35,550 nt of DNA. Source: Sulfurovum sp. GTDB taxonomy: Bacteria > Campylobacterota > Campylobacteria > Campylobacterales > Sulfurovaceae. The first letter of the stretch is position 1. Every line of letters begins with the position of its first letter. Below are positions 1 through 11,916 of this stretch, piece after piece. The stretch is taken from the NCBI GenBank assembly GCA_026996325.1, contig JALWLU010000173.1, positions 1-35,550 of the forward strand. Direction: 5' to 3'. Below the pieces are notes generated by a model. That model saw nothing but the letters and a program-made list of their open reading frames with translations. It had not been told where the DNA came from and did no database searches. A program made the translations under genes and the position numbers.

Positions 1-1235
1 CGCTCGAAGAGTGCACGCAGTTTTGCTTCCGGCAAAGAGGGGTTGTGCGCCAGCGCGGCAAGCATCTGCGTATCATCCCCTGCCCTCTCATAGAGCGTTT
101 CCAGAATGGCTTCGGGCGTAGCCGGATTTTTGGCAAGCGCCAGCTGCACCTGCCTGCCACCCTTTTCATAAAGTTCTGAAAGTACTTCGCCCGGAACCGT
201 TCTGTTTCCCGCAAGCATCTGCCACAGCGTTTCATTCTTTGTAGCGACAAGGGCTTTTATGACATCTGCTCCAAGCATCTCGTTTGCGCCGATGAGTGCG
301 AAGCGCTCTGCATCACTAACTGCCTTGCGTACCTTCTCGAAGCGTGACACATCGATGGGCTGATGCACCAGCAGCAGTGACACGGCCTCATCACCACGCC
401 CAAGCAATGCATCGAACAGTGCATTGTCAATAGCGCTGTTGGCGGCAAGCGCCTTGTCGATGGCTTCGTCACTCTGCGCAAGCAGGTGCTTCTGCACCTC
501 GTTCGTGATGGCGCTGTTCCCCGCAAGCGCACGCAACACGGCTATCTTCCGTGTCGCAAGGAGTTTGCGTACCGTCTCTTCATCGATGTGCGGGTTTCTG
601 GCTATCGTCTCCTGCATCGTGATCTTCTCTCTTCCACGTACCAGAAACTCGAAATTGGGAAAGTTCAGCAGCGCCTTGAGCAGCTCCGGGTCGGTCGCTT
701 CGGTAGCAAGGCGGCGCAGCGTGAGGTAGCTGTAGAGCAGGTCCTCTTCGTTGGGCTTTATGTCGATGTAACGGCGCAGCGTGTACATAATGACATCCCT
801 GTCCTGACGGTTGTCCTCCTCATCGCTGCTGAAGGTGTAGAGCTTGAGCAGGCGCACGAAAAGCGCATCACTGAGGTGCTCGTTGCCAAGCAGCCGGACC
901 ACACGCTCCTGGTCGTTGCCAAGTTTGATGGCCATCAGCAGCGCATCGTCATCTATCTCTTCTGAAAGCAGCTGTTCAAACTCACTTAGCTTGTATATTG
1001 GCAGATGCTGTTCGTAAGCTTCGTTGGAGATATCCTCTTCCACCGGATTGAGGCGGTGGTTTTCGACCACTCCAACGACCCCCTCTTCCAGATACTTTAC
1101 CGGTGTAACCTTGAAGCGCTTCAAAAAGCGTTCGATCTCTTTTTGGGTAAATATCTGCTCCTTGCCAAGCAGCAGCAGCTTTTTGCCTGCAGAAGTCTCA
1201 AGCAGCGATTTGAGTGTCGGTTTTTCATTCATCAT
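1..1235 (-). CDS. Leucine-rich-repeat-variant (LRV/HEAT-like) protein, 3' end outside window
   Basis: An open frame starts at the ATG at 1235 and runs without a stop to the window edge, giving about 411 residues and no C-terminus. From about residue 210 on it is built of helical repeats of roughly 22-26 residues with a recurring LAxNxxxxxxxLxxL core (for example LAGNSAITNEVQKHLL, LAKNPATPEAILETLYE, LAHNPSLPEAKLRALFE). This pattern resembles LRV and HEAT-type solenoids. The N-terminal 200 residues are charged and helical with no signal peptide or membrane segment, so it is probably a cytoplasmic scaffold or protein-binding protein. No catalytic motif is visible. Two ATGs lie in tandem at the start, and either could be used. 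It ends the minus-strand series that includes the M14 carboxypeptidase, but a hairpin at 1262-1286 separates them. The specific function is unknown. Confidence 0.8.
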   Translation of the reverse strand, partial: MMNEKPTLKSLLETSAGKKLLLLGKEQIFTQKEIERFLKRFKVTPVKYLEEGVVGVVENHRLNPVEEDISNEAYEQHLPIYKLSEFEQLLSEEIDDDALLMAIKLGNDQERVVRLLGNEHLSDALFVRLLKLYTFSSDEEDNRQDRDVIMYTLRRYIDIKPNEEDLLYSYLTLRRLATEATDPELLKALLNFPNFEFLVRGREKITMQETIARNPHIDEETVRKLLATRKIAVLRALAGNSAITNEVQKHLLAQSDEAIDKALAANSAIDNALFDALLGRGDEAVSLLLVHQPIDVSRFEKVRKAVSDAERFALIGANEMLGADVIKALVATKNETLWQMLAGNRTVPGEVLSELYEKGGRQVQLALAKNPATPEAILETLYERAGDDTQMLAALAHNPSLPEAKLRALFE

Positions 1236-1305: not shown

Positions 1306-3885
1306 TCAGTACTTCTCAAGCGGGTCGTAGCGCACCACGGACGCTTCGGAGAAGTTGGGCACATCATCGTAGGTAAATACCGCATAGTACTTCTCCTTGT
1401 CGAACGAGCCGAAGTTGTCGTAGGTCCAGGTATCTTTCCCACCGTAGAGCTTGACACCGTCCATAAAGTGGCGCGGCGGATGGAAACTGTTTCGTACGAC
1501 GTAGTAGCCTTTGAGCGCCTCGTCATCGACTTTGTCCCATGTCAGTTTGATCATCTTCTTCTCTTTGGAGATCTGTACGTTTTTCACAGGCGAAACCGGA
1601 TGGCGGCGCTTGGGGATATACTTGACAATCAGCTCGGCATCGTCCGCCCACTCGGTAATGCGGTTCTTCGCCCCCAGTGCGGAAGTCGGCTTGATGACCA
1701 GTTTGAGAGTCTTGCCCTCCTGGTGCATCTTGTCCAGCGCCTGTTTGGAGAGGGTATCGAAGTTGAAGTACTGACACTCTTTGGCGTTAAGATCGCTCTC
1801 GGCCACTTCGTAACCGATGTACTCTATCTTCTCACGGTTCTTGATATCTTCGTAGGTGCCTACCTCGTCAAGCTCCACCAGCTCGACATAAAAGCGAACA
1901 TCGGACTTCTTTTTGAAAGTGTTTTTGTTGCGAATGCGCAGTGCACACTGGATGATCATCGTCTTGTCGTGTTCTGGAAGCTTGGAGAGGTCGAAGTTCA
2001 GATAGCCGTAAACCTTGTTACCCTCAGCATCAAAGCCGCTTTTGAGTACATTCTCCTCCACACCCTCTTTTGCGATGGTCGCCCTCTCCTGTGTCGGCAG
2101 CTTGATCTTCTCGTTCTCTATTGTGTACTTGATATCAAGCATCGGACGGTAGTGGATACCGCCGCCGAATTTCCCGTAGCCGATATCAAACTGCATCATC
2201 TGGCTGTCTTCACCGTCTGGCAGGTATTTTGGTCCGTCAATACGGAATACCGCCTGCTTGTTGACAATCTCCTCTTCCAGCAGCTGGCACTCACGCTGTG
2301 AGAACTCCCAGAAGTTCCAGATACCCTGTGTCAGCTGACGTGATTTGATCGCCTGGCCGATGATCCCCTTGGCTTTTGCGTTTTCAATTTCGTTGAAGTC
2401 GCTGATATCGCTGAAGCTGCCATGCTCAAGCAAACTGAGGTCCCACTGTCCGAATTTCTCTATCTTCGCACCTACGCGGTTCATCGGGTAGAGATAGAAG
2501 CGTGCCGATTTGATGACGGCGTTGTCGGGAATGGAGCTGAGATCGAAACTGACTACGGAGTCGCAGATGCCCTTGGATTTGTTGATGCCTACAAAAAGGG
2601 AGTTGTTCCCAAAGTGTGCGCGGTTGCTCTCCTGCGTGTACTGCCCCACATATCCCGTACCATCCTTCGTTGCGAAGAGGAATCGGAAGAACTCATCCTC
2701 TGCCAGCGCGGTGCGCGCCTTGACCACCGGTGCGAATGCCGACTTGTAGCCGCTTTTTTTGCTGACGGCACGAATGGTGTAGTGGTAGTTCGTCGAACTC
2801 TCCAGATCGGTATCGGTAAAGGTATGCTCACCTGCGATCCCTACCCTTGTACGTTCGTCACAGGCATCTTTGTCTTTGGTGCTGCGGTAGATCTCGAAGA
2901 AGATGTCATCACGTTTCTCATACTTCCACACCAGTGTCACACTCGTGTCACTGACAGATTCCACCCTGAATTCATCAACACGGCGCGGGGCATACTCGGA
3001 GAAGTTGACCACTTCTGAGAAGGTACGGATGAGCGCGGGGATGTTCTCATGCACACTGCTGCTCATACTCTTCATATAGTCGGGGATGTTCTTCGTTCCC
3101 ACTTCGACCACAAGCGCTTTGATACCACGCGAATAGTAGTACTCACGCCCGCTTCCGCTGATGAGCGCTGCGGGCGGCTTTCCGCGGTGGATACCGTAAC
3201 GTCTTCCTGTAATTTTCTCTATCTCGTCATTCATGTTCGCCGCGATGACATTCATATCGGTCCCGTCTATCTCCGCTTCGTGCTTGAACTTGTGCGCAGG
3301 GAAGAAGACGTTGCCCTGGGAGTGGTAGTCGAGTGCAATCGTGATGTTCTCGTGCGCATCGACGAACTCTTTAATGGCACGCGTTTCAGCCTCCGAAAAT
3401 GGCTCCTCTCCGCCATAAACGTTGGAGGAGGTGTTCTCTATCTTCTTAAAACCGATGGAAAAGTTACGGTTAAGATCGACGCCGATGGTACCGTCATGGT
3501 TCTTTCTGCGGTTCTTTCGCCAGAAGGAGAAGTGTTTTCTCGAATACTCGTATCCATCCGGGTTGAGACACGGCACCATGTAGATCGTCGACTCTCTGAG
3601 CGCCTTTTCAAGTACGGGATTGACATCCTGGTTTTCAGCCACGTGCTTGATGAACTCAAGCGCCAGCTCATGACCGATCCACTCACGGGCGTGGATGGTA
3701 CCGGTATAGAGGAGCGCCGGCTTCTCATCGGACTTTTCGACCTCTTTTGAGATCTTGGCAAGGACGATATCGCGCCCTTCGTAGGTCGTACCGATCTTGA
3801 TGACTTCGATCAGATCAGGGTACTCTTTTTCCATTCTGTGCAGAAAGTCAAGACTCTCCTGATAAGACATATACTGGTTCTTCAT
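1306..3885 (-). CDS. M14 zinc carboxypeptidase with FnIII and DNRLRE-like modules
   Basis: This is a peptidase of 859 residues. The N-terminal M14 domain (about residues 5-300) keeps the zinc ligands H65 and E68 (motif HARE), H188 (DYHSQG) and the catalytic E261 (VVEVGT), so it should release C-terminal residues from peptides. It is followed by an FnIII-like domain (about 305-395), two beta-rich regions resembling DNRLRE modules (about 400-590 and 590-765, with phrases such as VVSFDLSSIPD and YGYLNFDLSKLPEHD), and a second FnIII-like domain (about 770-855). Such architectures are normally secreted, yet the N-terminus (MKNQYMSYQESLDF) has no signal peptide. It lies 100 bp downstream of an ATP-grasp ligase in the same orientation, which suggests it trims a product made by that ligase. 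Substrate specificity cannot be read from the sequence. The activity call is strong and the biological role is an inference. Confidence 0.9.
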   Translation of the reverse strand: MKNQYMSYQESLDFLHRMEKEYPDLIEVIKIGTTYEGRDIVLAKISKEVEKSDEKPALLYTGTIHAREWIGHELALEFIKHVAENQDVNPVLEKALRESTIYMVPCLNPDGYEYSRKHFSFWRKNRRKNHDGTIGVDLNRNFSIGFKKIENTSSNVYGGEEPFSEAETRAIKEFVDAHENITIALDYHSQGNVFFPAHKFKHEAEIDGTDMNVIAANMNDEIEKITGRRYGIHRGKPPAALISGSGREYYYSRGIKALVVEVGTKNIPDYMKSMSSSVHENIPALIRTFSEVVNFSEYAPRRVDEFRVESVSDTSVTLVWKYEKRDDIFFEIYRSTKDKDACDERTRVGIAGEHTFTDTDLESSTNYHYTIRAVSKKSGYKSAFAPVVKARTALAEDEFFRFLFATKDGTGYVGQYTQESNRAHFGNNSLFVGINKSKGICDSVVSFDLSSIPDNAVIKSARFYLYPMNRVGAKIEKFGQWDLSLLEHGSFSDISDFNEIENAKAKGIIGQAIKSRQLTQGIWNFWEFSQRECQLLEEEIVNKQAVFRIDGPKYLPDGEDSQMMQFDIGYGKFGGGIHYRPMLDIKYTIENEKIKLPTQERATIAKEGVEENVLKSGFDAEGNKVYGYLNFDLSKLPEHDKTMIIQCALRIRNKNTFKKKSDVRFYVELVELDEVGTYEDIKNREKIEYIGYEVAESDLNAKECQYFNFDTLSKQALDKMHQEGKTLKLVIKPTSALGAKNRITEWADDAELIVKYIPKRRHPVSPVKNVQISKEKKMIKLTWDKVDDEALKGYYVVRNSFHPPRHFMDGVKLYGGKDTWTYDNFGSFDKEKYYAVFTYDDVPNFSEASVVRYDPLEKY

Positions 3886-3985
3886 CGTTAACAGCCTTTA
3901 CAATAGTGGTTTGGAATATAAAAGGGGTCTCTTACCATGCCGGGAAGTACCGGCAGAGAAGAAAAAATCGGCGAAGTGTACACCG

Positions 3986-5416
3986 TTAGAGCTTATCTTT
4001 GAATGATTTCCACTCTTTGAGCAGTTTTTTCATGAACTTTTTTTTAAACCAGGAGAGCTCTTCACCAATCTTTTCAGGCGCAGTCTCAAGGGCATGCACC
4101 AGCTCGGTTGTGTCAAACTTCTTCATGATCTTCTCCGCTTTCTTCTCGCCGATACCCTCGACGGAAGTAAGCAGTTTTTTCACCTTCTTCTCAGAAAGCT
4201 CGATGATGTTCTCCTGTGCTTCACTCTGTGTACCCTCGTCGTCATCGTCATACTTTGGGTTCTTCTTCGCACTGACCTTCTCTATGGTCTTACCGTAGTT
4301 GTCCTGGAAGTTCCACTTCTCACTCGGCCACTCCTCTTTGGTGCGGGTGTAGGTGTCAAGCATCGGGTAGAGGCTGTCGAGCTCATGCAGGTACATTTCA
4401 CCCTCGGCCGTCTCTTTGGTCTTCTTGTCGAGGAAGAAGGCTCCGTCATAGCTTGGCGTATAGCGGCCAAAGGTAATGTAGCGCAGGGTACGCAGTACAC
4501 TTGCATCCATCTTGCCAAGCTCTTCCCAGTTGTAAAGCGGAATGTTCGGCAGAGGGAAACGCCCGTTGGAGAATTTCCACATCAGGTACTGCCCGATCCA
4601 GTCACGGATGTACGGGAAGGCCGCAAAGGCTGTCGCACACTCGAGAATGCGGTACTTGCCATCCTCACCGACAGCCACGTCACACGCCCAGTACTCGGCG
4701 TTTGCCGCTTTGGAGACTTTGACCGCAAGGTCAAGCAGCTCTTTTGGCACGTCCATGTAGTCCATACTTCCACCCTGGCTCGTGTTGGTCAGCCACTCAC
4801 CCTTTGGCGGGCGTCTCCAGAAAGCACAGACCGGCTTGTGACCGATGAGCATCACGCGCACATCCGCTTCCATGGGTACGAAATCCTGCATATAGATAGG
4901 GTGATACTTCTTCTTCTCAAGCAGCGCTTTCGCCTCTTTGGCAGAGTCCACCTTGTGGACGAAGTAGCCGCCGTAGTTGGAAGGGCCGTAACTCTTCTTG
5001 ATGATCTTGGGGTACTTCGTCTCTTCGATGAACTTCATCCCCTTCTCTCTGTCGTAGAAGATGTAGGTTTTTGGCACGGGAATGTCGTACTTCCAGGCAA
5101 AACGGGTTACGTTCTCTTTTGACTTGTTGGCAAACTGCGTATCCAGAGAGGGGATGAACTGCACATGCGGCAGCTCTCTTGCAATTTCGCGGAAGGTTTC
5201 GTACGCCGTTGCGGGAATGTTCCCGATGAGCACATCGATCTTCTTGCGCTTTACCTCTCTGATGAAACGATCCTTGTCGTTCTTCCAGTGGTAAACCACT
5301 GTTTCAATCTTGTCCGGCCATCCTCTAAAGTTGCTCTTGTCGAAAAATCTTAGTACGTGATCGAGGTAGAGCAGTCCGAGTTTTGGTAGTTTTTGCTGTT
5401 TGTTCTTTTTGGCCAT
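3986..5416 (-). CDS. RimK-like ATP-grasp ligase fused to a helix-hairpin-helix domain
   Basis: This protein of 476 residues has a RimK/glutathione-synthetase-type ATP-grasp fold over residues 1-290: an ATP-loop lysine region (IIKKSYGPSNYGG, 138-150), the DVRVMLIG strand, the R..N..QGGS segment (201-217), and acidic metal-site residues D246 and E259. The usual ExN metal motif reads ECA here, so the conserved asparagine is replaced. A variable middle region (about 290-400, with an Asp-rich stretch near 390) leads to a helix-hairpin-helix unit (VEGIGEKKAEKIMKKF, about 419-434) and a Lys-rich helical tail. ATP-grasp enzymes of this class form amide bonds between a carboxylate and an amine through an acyl-phosphate. 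HhH units normally bind DNA or mediate protein contacts, so the fusion is unusual. The start is supported by AAGGAG six bases upstream. It sits between a second ATP-grasp gene and the M14 gene on the same strand. Substrates are unknown. Confidence 0.88.
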   Translation of the reverse strand: MAKKNKQQKLPKLGLLYLDHVLRFFDKSNFRGWPDKIETVVYHWKNDKDRFIREVKRKKIDVLIGNIPATAYETFREIARELPHVQFIPSLDTQFANKSKENVTRFAWKYDIPVPKTYIFYDREKGMKFIEETKYPKIIKKSYGPSNYGGYFVHKVDSAKEAKALLEKKKYHPIYMQDFVPMEADVRVMLIGHKPVCAFWRRPPKGEWLTNTSQGGSMDYMDVPKELLDLAVKVSKAANAEYWACDVAVGEDGKYRILECATAFAAFPYIRDWIGQYLMWKFSNGRFPLPNIPLYNWEELGKMDASVLRTLRYITFGRYTPSYDGAFFLDKKTKETAEGEMYLHELDSLYPMLDTYTRTKEEWPSEKWNFQDNYGKTIEKVSAKKNPKYDDDDEGTQSEAQENIIELSEKKVKKLLTSVEGIGEKKAEKIMKKFDTTELVHALETAPEKIGEELSWFKKKFMKKLLKEWKSFKDKL

Positions 5417-5452
5417 ATAATACTCCTTGTTTGTATTTTAGTTATGCTAAGA

Positions 5453-5540
5453 GAGGTTTCACTCGATGGCGACAAAGGTGCACTCAACCCGTAGGGCGGC
5501 TTTGCCGTTTGCACCTGCCAGAGCTATCGAGTGAAACCTC
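5453..5540 (+). repeat. MITE-like repeat, copy 1
   Basis: This 88-bp element is bounded by 18-bp inverted ends, GAGGTTTCACTCGATGGC at 5453-5470 and its complement with one mismatch at 5523-5540. Inside is a second inverted pair, GGTGCA...TGCACC, so the whole element can fold into a hairpin. It lies between the two ATP-grasp genes, just upstream of the start of the HhH-fused one. A longer relative is present at 20485-20651 in the opposite orientation. It shares both ends and the block GCGACAAAGG-GCACTCAACCCG-AGGGCGGC. No ORF or transposase is present, so if mobile it would need a partner in trans. A target-site duplication was not evident. Confidence 0.8.
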
Positions 5541-5557
5541 CGATATCTCAGAAAATG

Positions 5558-6469
5558 CTATTTTTTCTTCTTTTTCTTTGTCTTGCGGTCGATCAGGTCG
5601 ACAATGAGGTCGATCTTCAGATCGTTGAAGTCAAGCCCCATCTTCTCCTGCTCCGGTGTAGCGAATGCCGGAATGCCGTTGACCTCCAGAACCACATACT
5701 CCTCACGCTCCATATCGTAGATAATGTCAACTCCGGCGATGTCCGTACCGCACACTTTGGCTGCCTTGATCGCAAGCTCGACCACTTCATCGTTCGGCTC
5801 ACGTTTAAAGACAGAGCCGCCACTGGTGACATTGGTACGCCAGTCGCTTTTGCTTGCCTTCCTTCCATAGCATCCGACAAATTTTCCATCAACGATATCG
5901 ACGCGGAAGTCGGTGTTGTCGTACTTGACGAACTTTTCGACGTAGAAGAAGCGCAGGTCGGTCTGGTTAAGGAAAGGAAGCAGCATATTGAGCGTCTCTT
6001 CATTCTCAATCTTTGTAAGCCCTACCCCGCCCCATCCGTCGGTCGGTTTGTAAACCATCTTCTTCCACTTCTTCATAATCCGCTCGAGATGTTCCGTATC
6101 GTCCCGGTGGCAGAGCTGAAACTCCGGTGTGACAATGCCGTGCTGCTGCAGCAGGTAGGCAGTTTGGAACTTGTCCTCGGTCAGGGCGAATGCTTCGTAG
6201 GAGTTGACGGTCGGAATGACGCGTGCAAGCGCCTGGTACAAAAAGACCTGGTACTGTGTCTGTTCTCCGGCGTTATAGGAGAAGAAGAGATCGAGCTTAT
6301 CTACCTTTCGTTTACCGTGGTAGATGTGCCCTTTCTTGGCTACGGCATGACGCAGATTGATACCTGTGACTGTCTCTATGCCACGCTCTTTGAGTCTTTT
6401 GACCATCTTCTGCTCTATTTTGTCTCCGCCGCCGTTGTGATACATCCACATCCCGATCTTTCTACCCAT
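5558..6469 (-). CDS. RimK-like ATP-grasp ligase
   Basis: This is a 303-residue protein covering a complete RimK-like ATP-grasp fold. Visible motifs are the ATP-binding lysine and glycine loop (VYKPTDGWGGVG, 139-150), the DFRVDIV strand (187-193), the RTNVTSGGS segment (211-219) and a canonical metal motif EVN (262-264) in VVLEVNGIPAFA. All catalytic elements expected for ATP-dependent carboxylate-amine ligation are therefore present, unlike the altered motif in the neighbouring paralogue. The tail is a short Lys-rich run. No signal peptide is seen, so it is cytoplasmic. It is the first gene of the minus-strand set (this gene, HhH-fused ATP-grasp, M14) and is transcribed divergently from an M20 carboxypeptidase. 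RimK relatives add glutamate or similar residues to protein tails or small molecules; which applies here is unknown. Confidence 0.9.
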   Translation of the reverse strand: MGRKIGMWMYHNGGGDKIEQKMVKRLKERGIETVTGINLRHAVAKKGHIYHGKRKVDKLDLFFSYNAGEQTQYQVFLYQALARVIPTVNSYEAFALTEDKFQTAYLLQQHGIVTPEFQLCHRDDTEHLERIMKKWKKMVYKPTDGWGGVGLTKIENEETLNMLLPFLNQTDLRFFYVEKFVKYDNTDFRVDIVDGKFVGCYGRKASKSDWRTNVTSGGSVFKREPNDEVVELAIKAAKVCGTDIAGVDIIYDMEREEYVVLEVNGIPAFATPEQEKMGLDFNDLKIDLIVDLIDRKTKKKKKK

Positions 6470-6586
6470 TGACCATCCTTACAATTTTACTGTGCTTTAA
6501 TCTCTTATTTTACTATATTTTATTAAAATATCTTCAGAGAAATATAACAATTTTGTAACATTTTCATAAAAAAGGCAGTAAAGAGT
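6470..6586. promoter_or_regulatory. Divergent promoter region with an AT-rich palindrome
   Basis: This 117-bp AT-rich gap separates the minus-strand ATP-grasp set from the plus-strand M20 gene and must carry both promoters. At 6515-6531 lies a perfect odd-centred palindrome, ATATTTTATTAAAATAT, with 8-bp arms. It overlaps -10-like sequence (TATAGT/TAAAAT on the minus strand) and so is a plausible operator co-regulating both directions. No recognised regulator motif was identified. Confidence 0.5.
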
Positions 6587-7681
6587 ATGGATTTTAAGGA
6601 ACTTCAAAAGATTATTGAGATCAATTCCTGGACAAAGAACAAGGAGGGGGTCGACGAAAACGGTGAGATATTCGCCTATTGGCTGGAGGAGCTTGGCTAT
6701 ACGCTTACACGCTACCCAAGAGAGGAGATAGGAGACCATCTGCATCTGAGTGCTCCCGAAAAGGAGGGGAAAAAGCTACTGCTGCTTGGACACCTTGACA
6801 CCGTTTTCCCTCCGGGCACCTTCGAGCAGTTCAGAGAGGATGAGGAGTGGATCTACGGTCCGGGCGTATGCGATATGAAAGGGGGCAACTATGTTGCTCT
6901 CCAGGCGCTTCGCAACGTCCATAAAAAGTTTGGCGCAATCCACAACATCGACTTCCTGCTTGTCAGCGACGAGGAGACCGGCAGTGACGACAGCAAGCAC
7001 CTCTCTGCCAAGCTGGCAAAGTCATACGACTACTGTATGGTATTCGAAGCGGCGGGCGTACACGACGAAGTGGTCATCGGACGCAAAGGAGTGGGCACCT
7101 TCTTCATCGACATTGAAGGTATCGCCGCACATGCGGGCAACCACTACGACAAGGGAGCCGATGCCAACCTCGAAGCGGCACTCAAACTACAGAGACTCGT
7201 CGCACTGACAGACCTTGAAAAGCAGACCACCGTCAATGTCGGTAAGATAGAAGGCGGCATCGGTGCCAACACCATTTCGCCCAAAGCGAAACTCACTTTC
7301 GAACTGCGCTACACCACGACTGATGAGCGTGACAGGGTTCTTGAAGCCATCGATGAGATCGTCACCACCTCTTATGTCGAGGGGACAGAGTCCAAACTCT
7401 CCGGCGGCATCCAGCGTGACGTGATGCAGCCCACCCCTGAACAGGCTACCTTTGTAAAAAAGATAGAAACCCTCTGCAACACTACCCTCCCCACCGAAAA
7501 ACGCGGCGGTGTGAGTGACGCCAACATCATCGCGTCACAGGGTGTGCCTACCCTCGATGGCTGGGGTCCCTACGGTGACGGCGACCATACGGTACACGAG
7601 AGGGCGAGTAAAAAGAGTTTCGAAGAGCGCATCGCGCTGGTTACGCAGATATTCGAACACTTTCTGCAAGGGGAGATATAG
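6587..7681 (+). CDS. M20 family carboxypeptidase (glutamate carboxypeptidase G2-like)
   Basis: This 364-residue dizinc peptidase has the full M20 signature: GHLDTVFPPG (H69, D71), GPGVCDMKGG (bridging D96), the catalytic pair E129/E130 in SDEETGS, E154 in MVFEAAG, and a late histidine in GDGDHTVHE. A lid/dimerisation domain lies in the middle (about residues 170-285, around AHAGNHYDKGADAN). The closest family by motif is the CPG2 type, which cleaves C-terminal glutamate or similar residues from small conjugates. There is no signal peptide, so it is cytoplasmic. It is divergently oriented from the two ATP-grasp ligases, suggesting it hydrolyses or recycles their amide product. It is followed immediately by a rho-independent terminator whose stem overlaps its last codons. 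The peptidase family is clear and the substrate is not. Confidence 0.92.
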   Translation: MDFKELQKIIEINSWTKNKEGVDENGEIFAYWLEELGYTLTRYPREEIGDHLHLSAPEKEGKKLLLLGHLDTVFPPGTFEQFREDEEWIYGPGVCDMKGGNYVALQALRNVHKKFGAIHNIDFLLVSDEETGSDDSKHLSAKLAKSYDYCMVFEAAGVHDEVVIGRKGVGTFFIDIEGIAAHAGNHYDKGADANLEAALKLQRLVALTDLEKQTTVNVGKIEGGIGANTISPKAKLTFELRYTTTDERDRVLEAIDEIVTTSYVEGTESKLSGGIQRDVMQPTPEQATFVKKIETLCNTTLPTEKRGGVSDANIIASQGVPTLDGWGPYGDGDHTVHERASKKSFEERIALVTQIFEHFLQGEI

Positions 7682-9721: not shown

Positions 9722-10057
9722 TTATCGCATTGAGCGTATAATGGACTTTATGTGCGGCAGATACTCCCGAATGACATTTTCAATCAGAGCAAGATTAACA
9801 CCCTCGTAGTCATGCGCAATAAAATTTCGTACCGCAAATGCCCCTCGTACATCCTCCTTGTCAAACTTTGACAAGACCTCATACTCCATTGCATTCTGGA
9901 GACGCCCAAACTGCTCGGCAATGGAAACAAGATGCATCATGATAGCCGGTCTTGACAGCGTCTCATCTTCAAGTGCTTCAACAATCGAGCCGCTCTGTGC
10001 TATTATCTGTTCAATCCTATCTATTTTATCTGCAATAAGCTCCAGGGATTCATGCAT
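9722..10057 (-). CDS. hepT: HepT-like HEPN toxin (DUF86)
   Basis: This 111-residue all-helical HEPN protein carries the Rx4-6H active-site motif in AVRNFIAHDYEGVN. HEPN proteins of this type act as RNases and are silenced by their MNT partner, which adds AMP to a tyrosine near the motif (consistent with the HDY here). The start at 10057 is preferred because its ATG overlaps the mntA stop by 8 bases (ATGCATGA) and has GAGGGGAG at a proper distance. A start at 10084 (MASRGEM) would lack a good ribosome site. It is translationally coupled to mntA upstream. Confidence 0.88.
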   Translation of the reverse strand: MHESLELIADKIDRIEQIIAQSGSIVEALEDETLSRPAIMMHLVSIAEQFGRLQNAMEYEVLSKFDKEDVRGAFAVRNFIAHDYEGVNLALIENVIREYLPHIKSIIRSMR

Positions 10058-10358
10058 AAATAACATCTCCCCTCTGCTTGCCATTCAAGCCTGCTTCATC
10101 ACAGATGTCCACTTTTCTGCCAAAATGTCTGGAGATCGTCTCTTTAAGATTCTCCAGATAAAGAAACCCCTCTACTCCTTTAAAGCGCTGGGCAAACTTC
10201 GGTGTTGTCCGCACCATAACATCTATATCACTAAGCATATCTGCTTTACCATTAGCCACCGAACCAAACAGACCTATACGGTCTATTCCTTTCTCTTCCA
10301 ATTCCGGTTTCAATAGTTTCAAGTATGCTACTACTTCATCTTTGTCGATAAACTTCAT
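10050..10358 (-). CDS. mntA: MntA-like nucleotidyltransferase antitoxin
   Basis: This is a minimal nucleotidyltransferase of 102 residues with the polymerase-beta-type GSx10DxD signature (GSVANGKADMLSDIDV) and a later acidic third residue in KVDICDEA. In the MntA/HepT toxin-antitoxin system this enzyme AMPylates HepT and thereby blocks its RNase activity. It overlaps hepT by 8 bases. The ATG at 10358 (MKFIDKDEVV) is chosen over 10397 because the upstream codons overlap the end of the DUF2905 gene and contain a TATAAT box. There is no clear ribosome site in front of the chosen start. Confidence 0.88.
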   Translation of the reverse strand: MKFIDKDEVVAYLKLLKPELEEKGIDRIGLFGSVANGKADMLSDIDVMVRTTPKFAQRFKGVEGFLYLENLKETISRHFGRKVDICDEAGLNGKQRGDVIYA

Positions 10359-10365
10359 AATGAGA

Positions 10366-10371
10366 ATTATA
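10366..10371 (-). promoter_or_regulatory. Perfect -10 box directly before mntA
   Basis: TATAAT on the minus strand ends 7 bases before the mntA ATG, so transcription would begin at or next to the start codon. This implies a leaderless or nearly leaderless mRNA. The -35 region (GTTTTT at 17-base spacing) is weak. Confidence 0.45.
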
Positions 10372-10378
10372 GCATATT

Positions 10379-10582
10379 TCAGTGACGGAAAAACCACATC
10401 ACTATCGAAGCCACAGCCGAAACAAGCAGCATTGACGTAATGGGAATGAAAACGAAAGTATTCTCACCCTTGTAGCGAATATCACCCGGAAGATTTCCAA
10501 ACCAGTCAAGCAGACCGTACTTGTAGGCAACACCAGCAACGATCAGCCCGATACCAAGACAAATCAGTAAATTTCCGTTCAT
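10379..10582 (-). CDS. DUF2905 small membrane protein
   Basis: This is a 67-residue protein with two membrane segments (LLICLGIGLIVAGVAYKYG, and ITSMLLVSAVASIVMWFF) joined by a loop containing WFGNLPGDIRYKGEN, the signature of the DUF2905 family. Family members are widespread inner-membrane proteins with no known function. The position upstream of mntA is probably incidental, since mntA has its own -10 box overlapping its 3' end. Confidence 0.88.
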   Translation of the reverse strand: MNGNLLICLGIGLIVAGVAYKYGLLDWFGNLPGDIRYKGENTFVFIPITSMLLVSAVASIVMWFFRH

Positions 10583-11550: not shown

Positions 11551-11916
11551 TTATAAAAGCTTCATTCCCTCTATATATTTGAAATCTTTCTTGTTATACG
11601 TCAACAACTTTGCATCATTAAGCAATGCTGTAGAGGCTATTAGACTGTCGGGTATATCAAGCGTGTGGCTTTTTGCATAACGCTTGCTGAGCTTTACAGC
11701 CATTCTTGATATAGTTTCGTCTATATGGATAATATCAAAGAGGAAAACGAATTTTTCCAGTTTGTTCAACTCCGCTTTATTCAGCGCGCCATAGTAGAGT
11801 TCCATCACTGAAATAGACAAGATAGATAGATGTTCTGTCAGCGATTCTACCTTTTCTACAGTTACACTGTCACCTTTGAGTATTTCGATAAGAATGTTTG
11901 TATCCAGTACAATCAT
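11551..11916 (-). CDS. vapC: VapC-type PIN-domain toxin
   Basis: A PIN-domain RNase of 121 residues has the acidic active-site residues in place: MIVLDTNIL (D5), the glutamate in VMELYYGA, and the aspartate in TLDIPDSLIAS. VapC toxins cleave specific RNAs, often tRNA, and are held inactive by VapB. It starts four bases inside the end of vapB (ATGA overlap), which is the usual coupling. It appears intact. Confidence 0.9.
   Translation of the reverse strand: MIVLDTNILIEILKGDSVTVEKVESLTEHLSILSISVMELYYGALNKAELNKLEKFVFLFDIIHIDETISRMAVKLSKRYAKSHTLDIPDSLIASTALLNDAKLLTYNKKDFKYIEGMKLL

Follow-up and report, generated by a model that had tools for sequence, protein, structure and literature searches.

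A conserved cassette of two ATP-grasp ligases and two metallocarboxypeptidases in Sulfurovum and its relatives: a candidate system for adding and trimming acidic amino acids

The stretch of DNA considered here (the window) comprises 35,550 nucleotides of contig JALWLU010000173.1 (C173 in our labelling) from a Sulfurovum-like genome that is 85% complete (G000). It contains four clustered genes, whose products are an M14 metallocarboxypeptidase, two ATP-grasp ligases that we call LigB and LigA, and an M20 metallopeptidase encoded on the opposite strand (Table 1). The four open reading frames (ORFs) lie exactly at the coordinates and on the strands given by a first-pass annotation of the window, and Pfam confirms the families named there. 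The same annotation placed a shared promoter between the diverging ligA and M20 genes; a 117-bp intergenic region is indeed present, but a scan of it with the sigma-70 consensus finds no promoter site.

Table 1. Features of the four-gene cassette, in window coordinates
Feature	Position	Strand	Details
M14A (carboxypeptidase A/B type) metallocarboxypeptidase	1306..3885	-	859 aa; PF00246 1.5e-57; predicted acidic C-terminal specificity
M14 catalytic domain, residues 12-263	3097..3852	-	
M14 Arg247 codon, carboxypeptidase A position 255 (S1' specificity)	3145..3147	-	phmmer alignment to 1cbx
M14 fn3 domain, residues 304-377	2755..2976	-	PF00041 3.5e-6
M14 DNRLRE-type domain, best stretch residues 417-468	2482..2637	-	NF033679 6.6e-12, exceeds cut-off
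ligB, RimK/LysX-type ATP-grasp ligase with C-terminal helix-hairpin-helix	3986..5416	-	476 aa; PF08443 3e-15
LigB E259-C260-A261, in place of canonical E-x-N metal motif	4634..4642	-	alignment A1 and distant orthologs
LigB helix-hairpin-helix module, residues about 408-470	4007..4195	-	weak HHH/HHH_5 matches; clearer in orthologs
ligA, RimK/MptN-type ATP-grasp ligase	5558..6469	-	303 aa; PF08443 1.2e-22; MptN 1.8e-43
Intergenic region between divergent ligA and M20, 117 bp	6470..6586	.	ORF coordinates
M20 metallopeptidase nearest carboxypeptidase G2	6587..7681	+	364 aa; PF01546 (Peptidase_M20) 3.9e-23; 1cg2 1.6e-32

The gene order M20-ligA-ligB-M14 recurs in most of 109 related loci, which were compared by tblastn with the four proteins. 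Of the 50 loci that have enough flanking sequence, about 40 hold all four genes no more than 4 kb from ligB; the exception L009 in this count is a gene-calling artefact. M20 is divergent in 56 loci and co-directional in 6, forming a plain four-gene operon at L064, L065 and L080, and one locus (L073) has the deviant order ligB-M20-ligA-M14. The gap between ligA and ligB has a median of 13 bp. Beyond the four genes, the flanks vary by lineage. An LRV protein, a ComF-like protein, SIR2, an AAA ATPase and the gapA/tpiA region were considered as further members, but each is lineage-restricted and was therefore excluded from the system. Among flanking ORFs of at least 60 amino acids, no precursor, exporter, cofactor-scaffold, kinase, reductase or aminotransferase gene recurs beside the cassette.

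The four families are also inherited together. We profiled 150 Campylobacterota genomes, all at least 95% complete except the window's own. Full-length ligB is present in 14 of them, and M14 occurs in exactly these 14 and in none besides; ligA orthologs are found in the same 14 plus G032, and M20 orthologs in the same 14 plus G032 and G094. The positive genomes span five families, of which f1, f8 and f16 also hold genomes that lack the module. In two genomes (G039 and G160) ligB lies about 0.8 Mb from the other three genes, and all four are still present. Another genome, G071, retains only a decayed ligB fragment with stop codons (C1:157167-157469, in L154), flanked by dnaE-like and efp genes, and ligA, M20 and M14 are all absent from it, a pattern that looks like joint decay of the module. 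Partial modules are seen in G032, which has ligA and M20 only (L144), and in G094, which has M20 only (L145); the ligA-M20 pair may be an older core.

Outside the Campylobacterota, where sampling covered PLSDB records only, tblastn reveals a complete set at 50-58% identity in the gammaproteobacterium Photobacterium sp. DA100, on a replicon of 2.1 Mb. Its order and orientation are those of the window, with 4-bp stop/start overlaps at the ligA/ligB and ligB/M14 junctions. A concatenated tree joins Photobacterium to a Nitratiruptor-like clade (support 0.987, on a long branch, with the root undefined), which suggests that the cassette was transferred horizontally as a block. Pairwise distances among the four families correlate at 0.71-0.88, as expected under joint inheritance. 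The positive genomes are related by descent, and the co-occurrence is given without a formal probability. The first-pass annotation had held that its proposal would fail if the families never co-occurred elsewhere; the all-or-none presence in Campylobacterota, the joint loss in G071 and the intact Photobacterium cassette show that they do. The grouping of the four genes exceeds chance, and they are a conserved module.

In the Sulfurimonas-type lineage the cassette is split. A solitary ligB lies about 30 bp downstream of efp (L147, L148, L066, L078 and L154, with only the remnant in the genome of L154), M20-ligA-M14 adjoin rplS-trmD-rimM-like genes (L146 and L149), and both pieces are next to translation genes. 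A search with a defence-system library gave no meaningful match (NsnC at 0.017 only), and no relative of ligB was found in the viral contigs searched.

The residues of the M14 protein give an indication of its function. The protein aligns with carboxypeptidase A and B (CPA and CPB) structures with a VIA-align Z of about 29, the VIA-align and Foldseek rows spanning residues 1-297 only. Its catalytic set is complete and conserved: the zinc ligands H65, E68 and H188, together with R123, N139/R140 and E261, correspond to the HxxE...H, R127, N144/R145 and E270 of the CPA/B type, and E261 (within VVEVG) falls at the VEL/FEM motif when other M14 proteins are aligned. The counterpart of CPA residue 255 is Arg247, which supplies the basic residue that marks the acidic-specific M14A enzymes. 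Arg247 is invariant in a 22-member alignment (A2), and Arg is also present in L151 and in Photobacterium, whereas the equivalent residue in four other bacterial M14 proteins is Thr, Ile, Asp and Asp. Residue 255 determines specificity, and Arg255 of carboxypeptidase O (CPO) gives it acidic C-terminal specificity (PMC9925722). Since Arg247 occupies this position as in CPO, the M14 protein is predicted to remove C-terminal Glu or Asp. It shares the fold, zinc site and catalytic residues of CPO and CPA (PMC9925722) but differs from them in having neither prodomain nor signal peptide (the upstream open frame extends only 4 codons beyond the start) and in carrying about 560 extra C-terminal residues, which include fn3 and DNRLRE-type domains that the first-pass annotation did not describe. 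Peptidoglycan recycling by an MpaA- or Csd4-like activity is disfavoured, because the enzyme belongs to the CPA/B type and has Arg247.

The M20 protein is nearest to carboxypeptidase G2 (CPG2), and its active site (H69/D96/E129/E130/E154/H334) is complete. It keeps the metal ligands and catalytic Glu of CPG2 and equivalents of Arg324, Asn275, Arg288 and His229; the metal ligands, the catalytic Glu and the Arg324/Asn275 equivalents are invariant in alignment A4. In CPG2, Arg324 and Asn275 bind carboxylate. Unlike CPG2, this enzyme has no signal peptide and is bound to a cassette.

Both ligases are RimK-type ATP-grasp proteins, though only distant relatives of one another (25% identical over the ATP-grasp core), and neither reaches the RimK or LysX cut-offs. 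Against the RimK models, LigA scores 140.8 (cut-off 143.4, TIGR00768) and 57.9 (cut-off 331, PRK10446), and LigB 82.5 and 15.7, respectively; against the LysX equivalog they score 112.3 and 78.9, below the required 275.6. The best named match of LigA is MptN (1.8e-43), yet its 148.7 bits fall short of the 350-bit cut-off. In Pseudomonas aeruginosa RimK, R189 and N262 contact the Glu at the end of the chain bound there (PMC10092738); their equivalents in LigA, R189 and N264, are invariant. LigB orthologs are 65-99% identical. The top Foldseek match of LigB is ArgX (3vpb, 5.3e-13), obtained with a modest model (predicted local distance difference test score, pLDDT, of 62).

At its C-terminus, behind a variable linker, LigB carries a helix-hairpin-helix module that the first-pass annotation omits and that is present in several families. 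The match is weak in the window protein and clear in orthologs: HHH_5 at 1.8e-8 in L147, and HHH_3 at 3.8e-27 and 1.5e-25 in L150 and L152. The clade of L150 and L152 has an HHH_3 (ComEA-like) tail and others an HHH_5-like one, and since the clades use different versions, possession of such a module seems to be important. Modules of this kind usually bind the backbones of nucleic acids. Thus, the tail suggests that LigB acts on an RNA- or DNA-bound target.

A strongly hydrophobic segment at the N-terminus is missing from all four families, and the lack of an export signal, together with the short upstream frame of M14, indicates that all four are probably cytoplasmic; in a shared compartment, ligases and hydrolases could meet the same product. 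LigA and LigB would spend ATP to join acidic amino acids (L-glutamate is the likeliest) to an acceptor carboxylate, M14 and M20 would take acidic residues off the ends of such products, and the opposition of ligation and trimming would make the length or presence of the tag adjustable. The helix-hairpin-helix tail would probably bring LigB to a nucleic-acid-bound acceptor. That the enzymes build and trim an amino-acid tag was already proposed in the first-pass annotation. Arg247 of M14, the kinship of M20 with CPG2 and the absence of export signals favour the proposal; its chemistry, residue and acceptor stay interpretive, and we infer glutamate as the added residue, a common product for ligation and trimming, the cytoplasmic location and the targeting to nucleic acid. 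Most likely, the four genes, co-inherited in several sulfur-oxidising families and a marine Photobacterium, form one tag-and-trim system. In the fuller form of one intracellular writer-eraser module for acidic amino-acid conjugates, we put the chances as evenly balanced. A protein acceptor, perhaps one associated with the ribosome or the nucleoid, is somewhat more likely than a small-molecule coenzyme. A narrower version, in which a nucleic-acid-associated protein undergoes reversible cytoplasmic (poly)glutamylation, as a counterpart in logic of the tubulin code written and erased by tubulin tyrosine ligase-like (TTLL) enzymes and cytosolic carboxypeptidases (CCPs) and with erasers unlike those of RimK/RimB, is tentative and clearly less probable than the general one.

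Several observations weigh against a single writer-eraser module of this kind. RimK holds its poly-Glu chain in a groove that includes R64 and S68 (PMC10092738), and LigA has Tyr65 and Glu69 at these positions, so that its acceptor probably differs from a RimK-type tail. The first-pass annotation described complete active-site motifs in M14, M20 and LigB, which is correct for M14 and M20, but in LigB the third metal-ligand Asn (a Mg ligand; RimK N262) is Ala261 in every ortholog examined, and E-C-A is invariant in alignment A1 and in distant orthologs. PurK and other active ATP-grasp families also lack this Asn, so its loss does not of itself make LigB inactive, and the very high conservation of the protein speaks against inactivity. 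The ligase sequences do not reveal which amino acid is added. The Pfam helix-hairpin-helix match of the window's LigB is below the gathering score, and a Pfam scan of the Photobacterium LigB gave no such match. M20 lacks Lys208 of CPG2, which falls in an alignment gap, with the invariant R166/K167 close by. The fn3 and DNRLRE domains of M14 are commoner in exported proteins. Several loci have no M14 beside ligA-ligB; these loci are contig fragments, and the gene may lie elsewhere. Finally, the substrates of M14 and M20 could be unrelated peptides, or each peptidase could act on the product of one ligase.

Among other explanations, the construction of a coenzyme side chain is possible, if only about half as probable as the writer-eraser module. 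Here LigA and LigB would act one after the other to extend a small-molecule cofactor by an oligo-glutamate tail, in the manner of MyfA/MyfB or MptN, and M20 and M14 would shorten it. CPG2, which the M20 protein resembles, removes glutamate from folates, and MptN is the nearest named relative of LigA. Methylofuran requires two ATP-grasp ligases that act in sequence, one of them MptN-like (PMC8141765). However, LigA is far under the MptN cut-off, no cofactor-scaffold gene recurs beside the cassette, and a ligase with a helix-hairpin-helix tail is unexpected for a free cofactor. Biosynthesis on a carrier, in which an amino acid is loaded onto a small acidic protein, modified and then released by M20, would follow the LysX/LysK logic of a RimK-like ligase with an M20 hydrolase; the ligA-M20 pair that stands without ligB and M14 in G032 and the resemblance of LigB to ArgX, whose structure was solved with LysW, agree with it. 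It is nevertheless improbable: the best LysW candidate in the window genome (85% complete) scores 12.1 bits against a TIGR01206 cut-off of 53.2, none of a kinase, reductase or aminotransferase is recurrent with the cassette, and the short ligA-ligB gap leaves little space for a carrier gene.

Glutamylation of the ribosomal protein S6 tail by RimK-type ligases, with the carboxypeptidases as erasers, is as doubtful as the carrier route. Both ligases are RimK-like, and the tail of LigB shows a weak likeness to S13-type helix-hairpin-helix/H2TH domains, but both proteins are far from the RimK equivalog cut-off and the groove that holds poly-Glu in RimK is not conserved in LigA. S6 was also considered directly as the acceptor: in 30 genomes, Glu/Ala-rich S6 tails occur in cassette-positive and in many cassette-negative genomes alike, with no consistent contrast. 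Incidental adjacency of independent housekeeping peptidases and ligases has still less to recommend it. The families are individually common, and M20 alone in G094 and ligA-M20 alone in G032 would fit; co-occurrence despite an unlinked ligB (G039 and G160), all-or-none presence in several families and the Photobacterium block do not. We consider least probable of all the maturation of a ribosomally synthesized and post-translationally modified peptide (RiPP) of the graspetide-like kind, with M14 and M20 as peptide processors; ATP-grasp maturases match weakly, but the compact cassette has little room for a precursor ORF, and neither a precursor nor an exporter recurs among flanking ORFs of 60 amino acids or more.

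The writer-eraser module would have precedents, for two ligases working in turn in MyfA/MyfB and for a ligase with an eraser in RimK/RimB. Reversible poly-glutamylation of S6 by RimK/RimB (RimABK) likewise pairs, inside the cell, an ATP-grasp Glu ligase with a glutamate remover (PMC11957791); the cassette differs in having two ligases and two zinc peptidases, in a LigA without the poly-Glu groove and in the lack of support for an S6 acceptor. The MyfA/MyfB methylofuran ligases and MptN share the use of two sequential ATP-grasp ligases, one MptN-like (PMC8141765), whereas the cassette has no adjoining cofactor genes, a LigA under the MptN cut-off and the peptidases. With LysX/ArgX-LysW-LysK it has in common a RimK-like ligase and an M20-family hydrolase, but LysW and the intermediate enzymes are missing, and M14 and a second ligase with a helix-hairpin-helix are added. 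The eukaryotic TTLL enzymes and cytosolic carboxypeptidases, known from the polyglutamylation of tubulin and Dishevelled, set ATP-dependent Glu ligases against M14-family deglutamylases, a logic common to both; TTLL11 modifies free C-termini (PMC11574253). The cassette, unlike these, is prokaryotic, uses another ligase subfamily and a CPA/B-type M14, and has an M20 partner. No published description of the four-gene set was found in the literature searched; a 2009 survey, which reportedly treats the gene neighbourhoods of amidoligases and lies outside the papers found, could mention parts of it. In its chemistry the system varies on known systems that ligate and trim amino acids, and the combination of parts is apparently new.

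Among bacteria, the main known case of reversible tagging with amino acids is the action of RimK/RimB on S6. If the interpretation as a writer-eraser module is right, the cassette would be a second bacterial tagging module with enzymes for both ligation and removal, built from partly different parts, and would represent a new regulatory or metabolic conjugate pathway. Free-living Campylobacterota conserve the cassette and one Vibrionaceae genome carries it, and it could be tested in cultivable strains; the four-gene definition and the prediction based on Arg247 make it directly assayable.

Other genes of the window lie outside the cassette. Just downstream of M14 (3-1235, minus strand) is an LRV/HEAT-like repeat protein with weak Pfam matches to DUF2336 and LRV_2, found in 13 loci, mostly of Sulfurovum. 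Further along the minus strand are a HepT-like (HEPN) protein and a minimal nucleotidyltransferase (9722-10397), a pair that is probably a toxin-antitoxin module, and, in the same stretch, a VapC-like PIN-domain protein (11551-11916).

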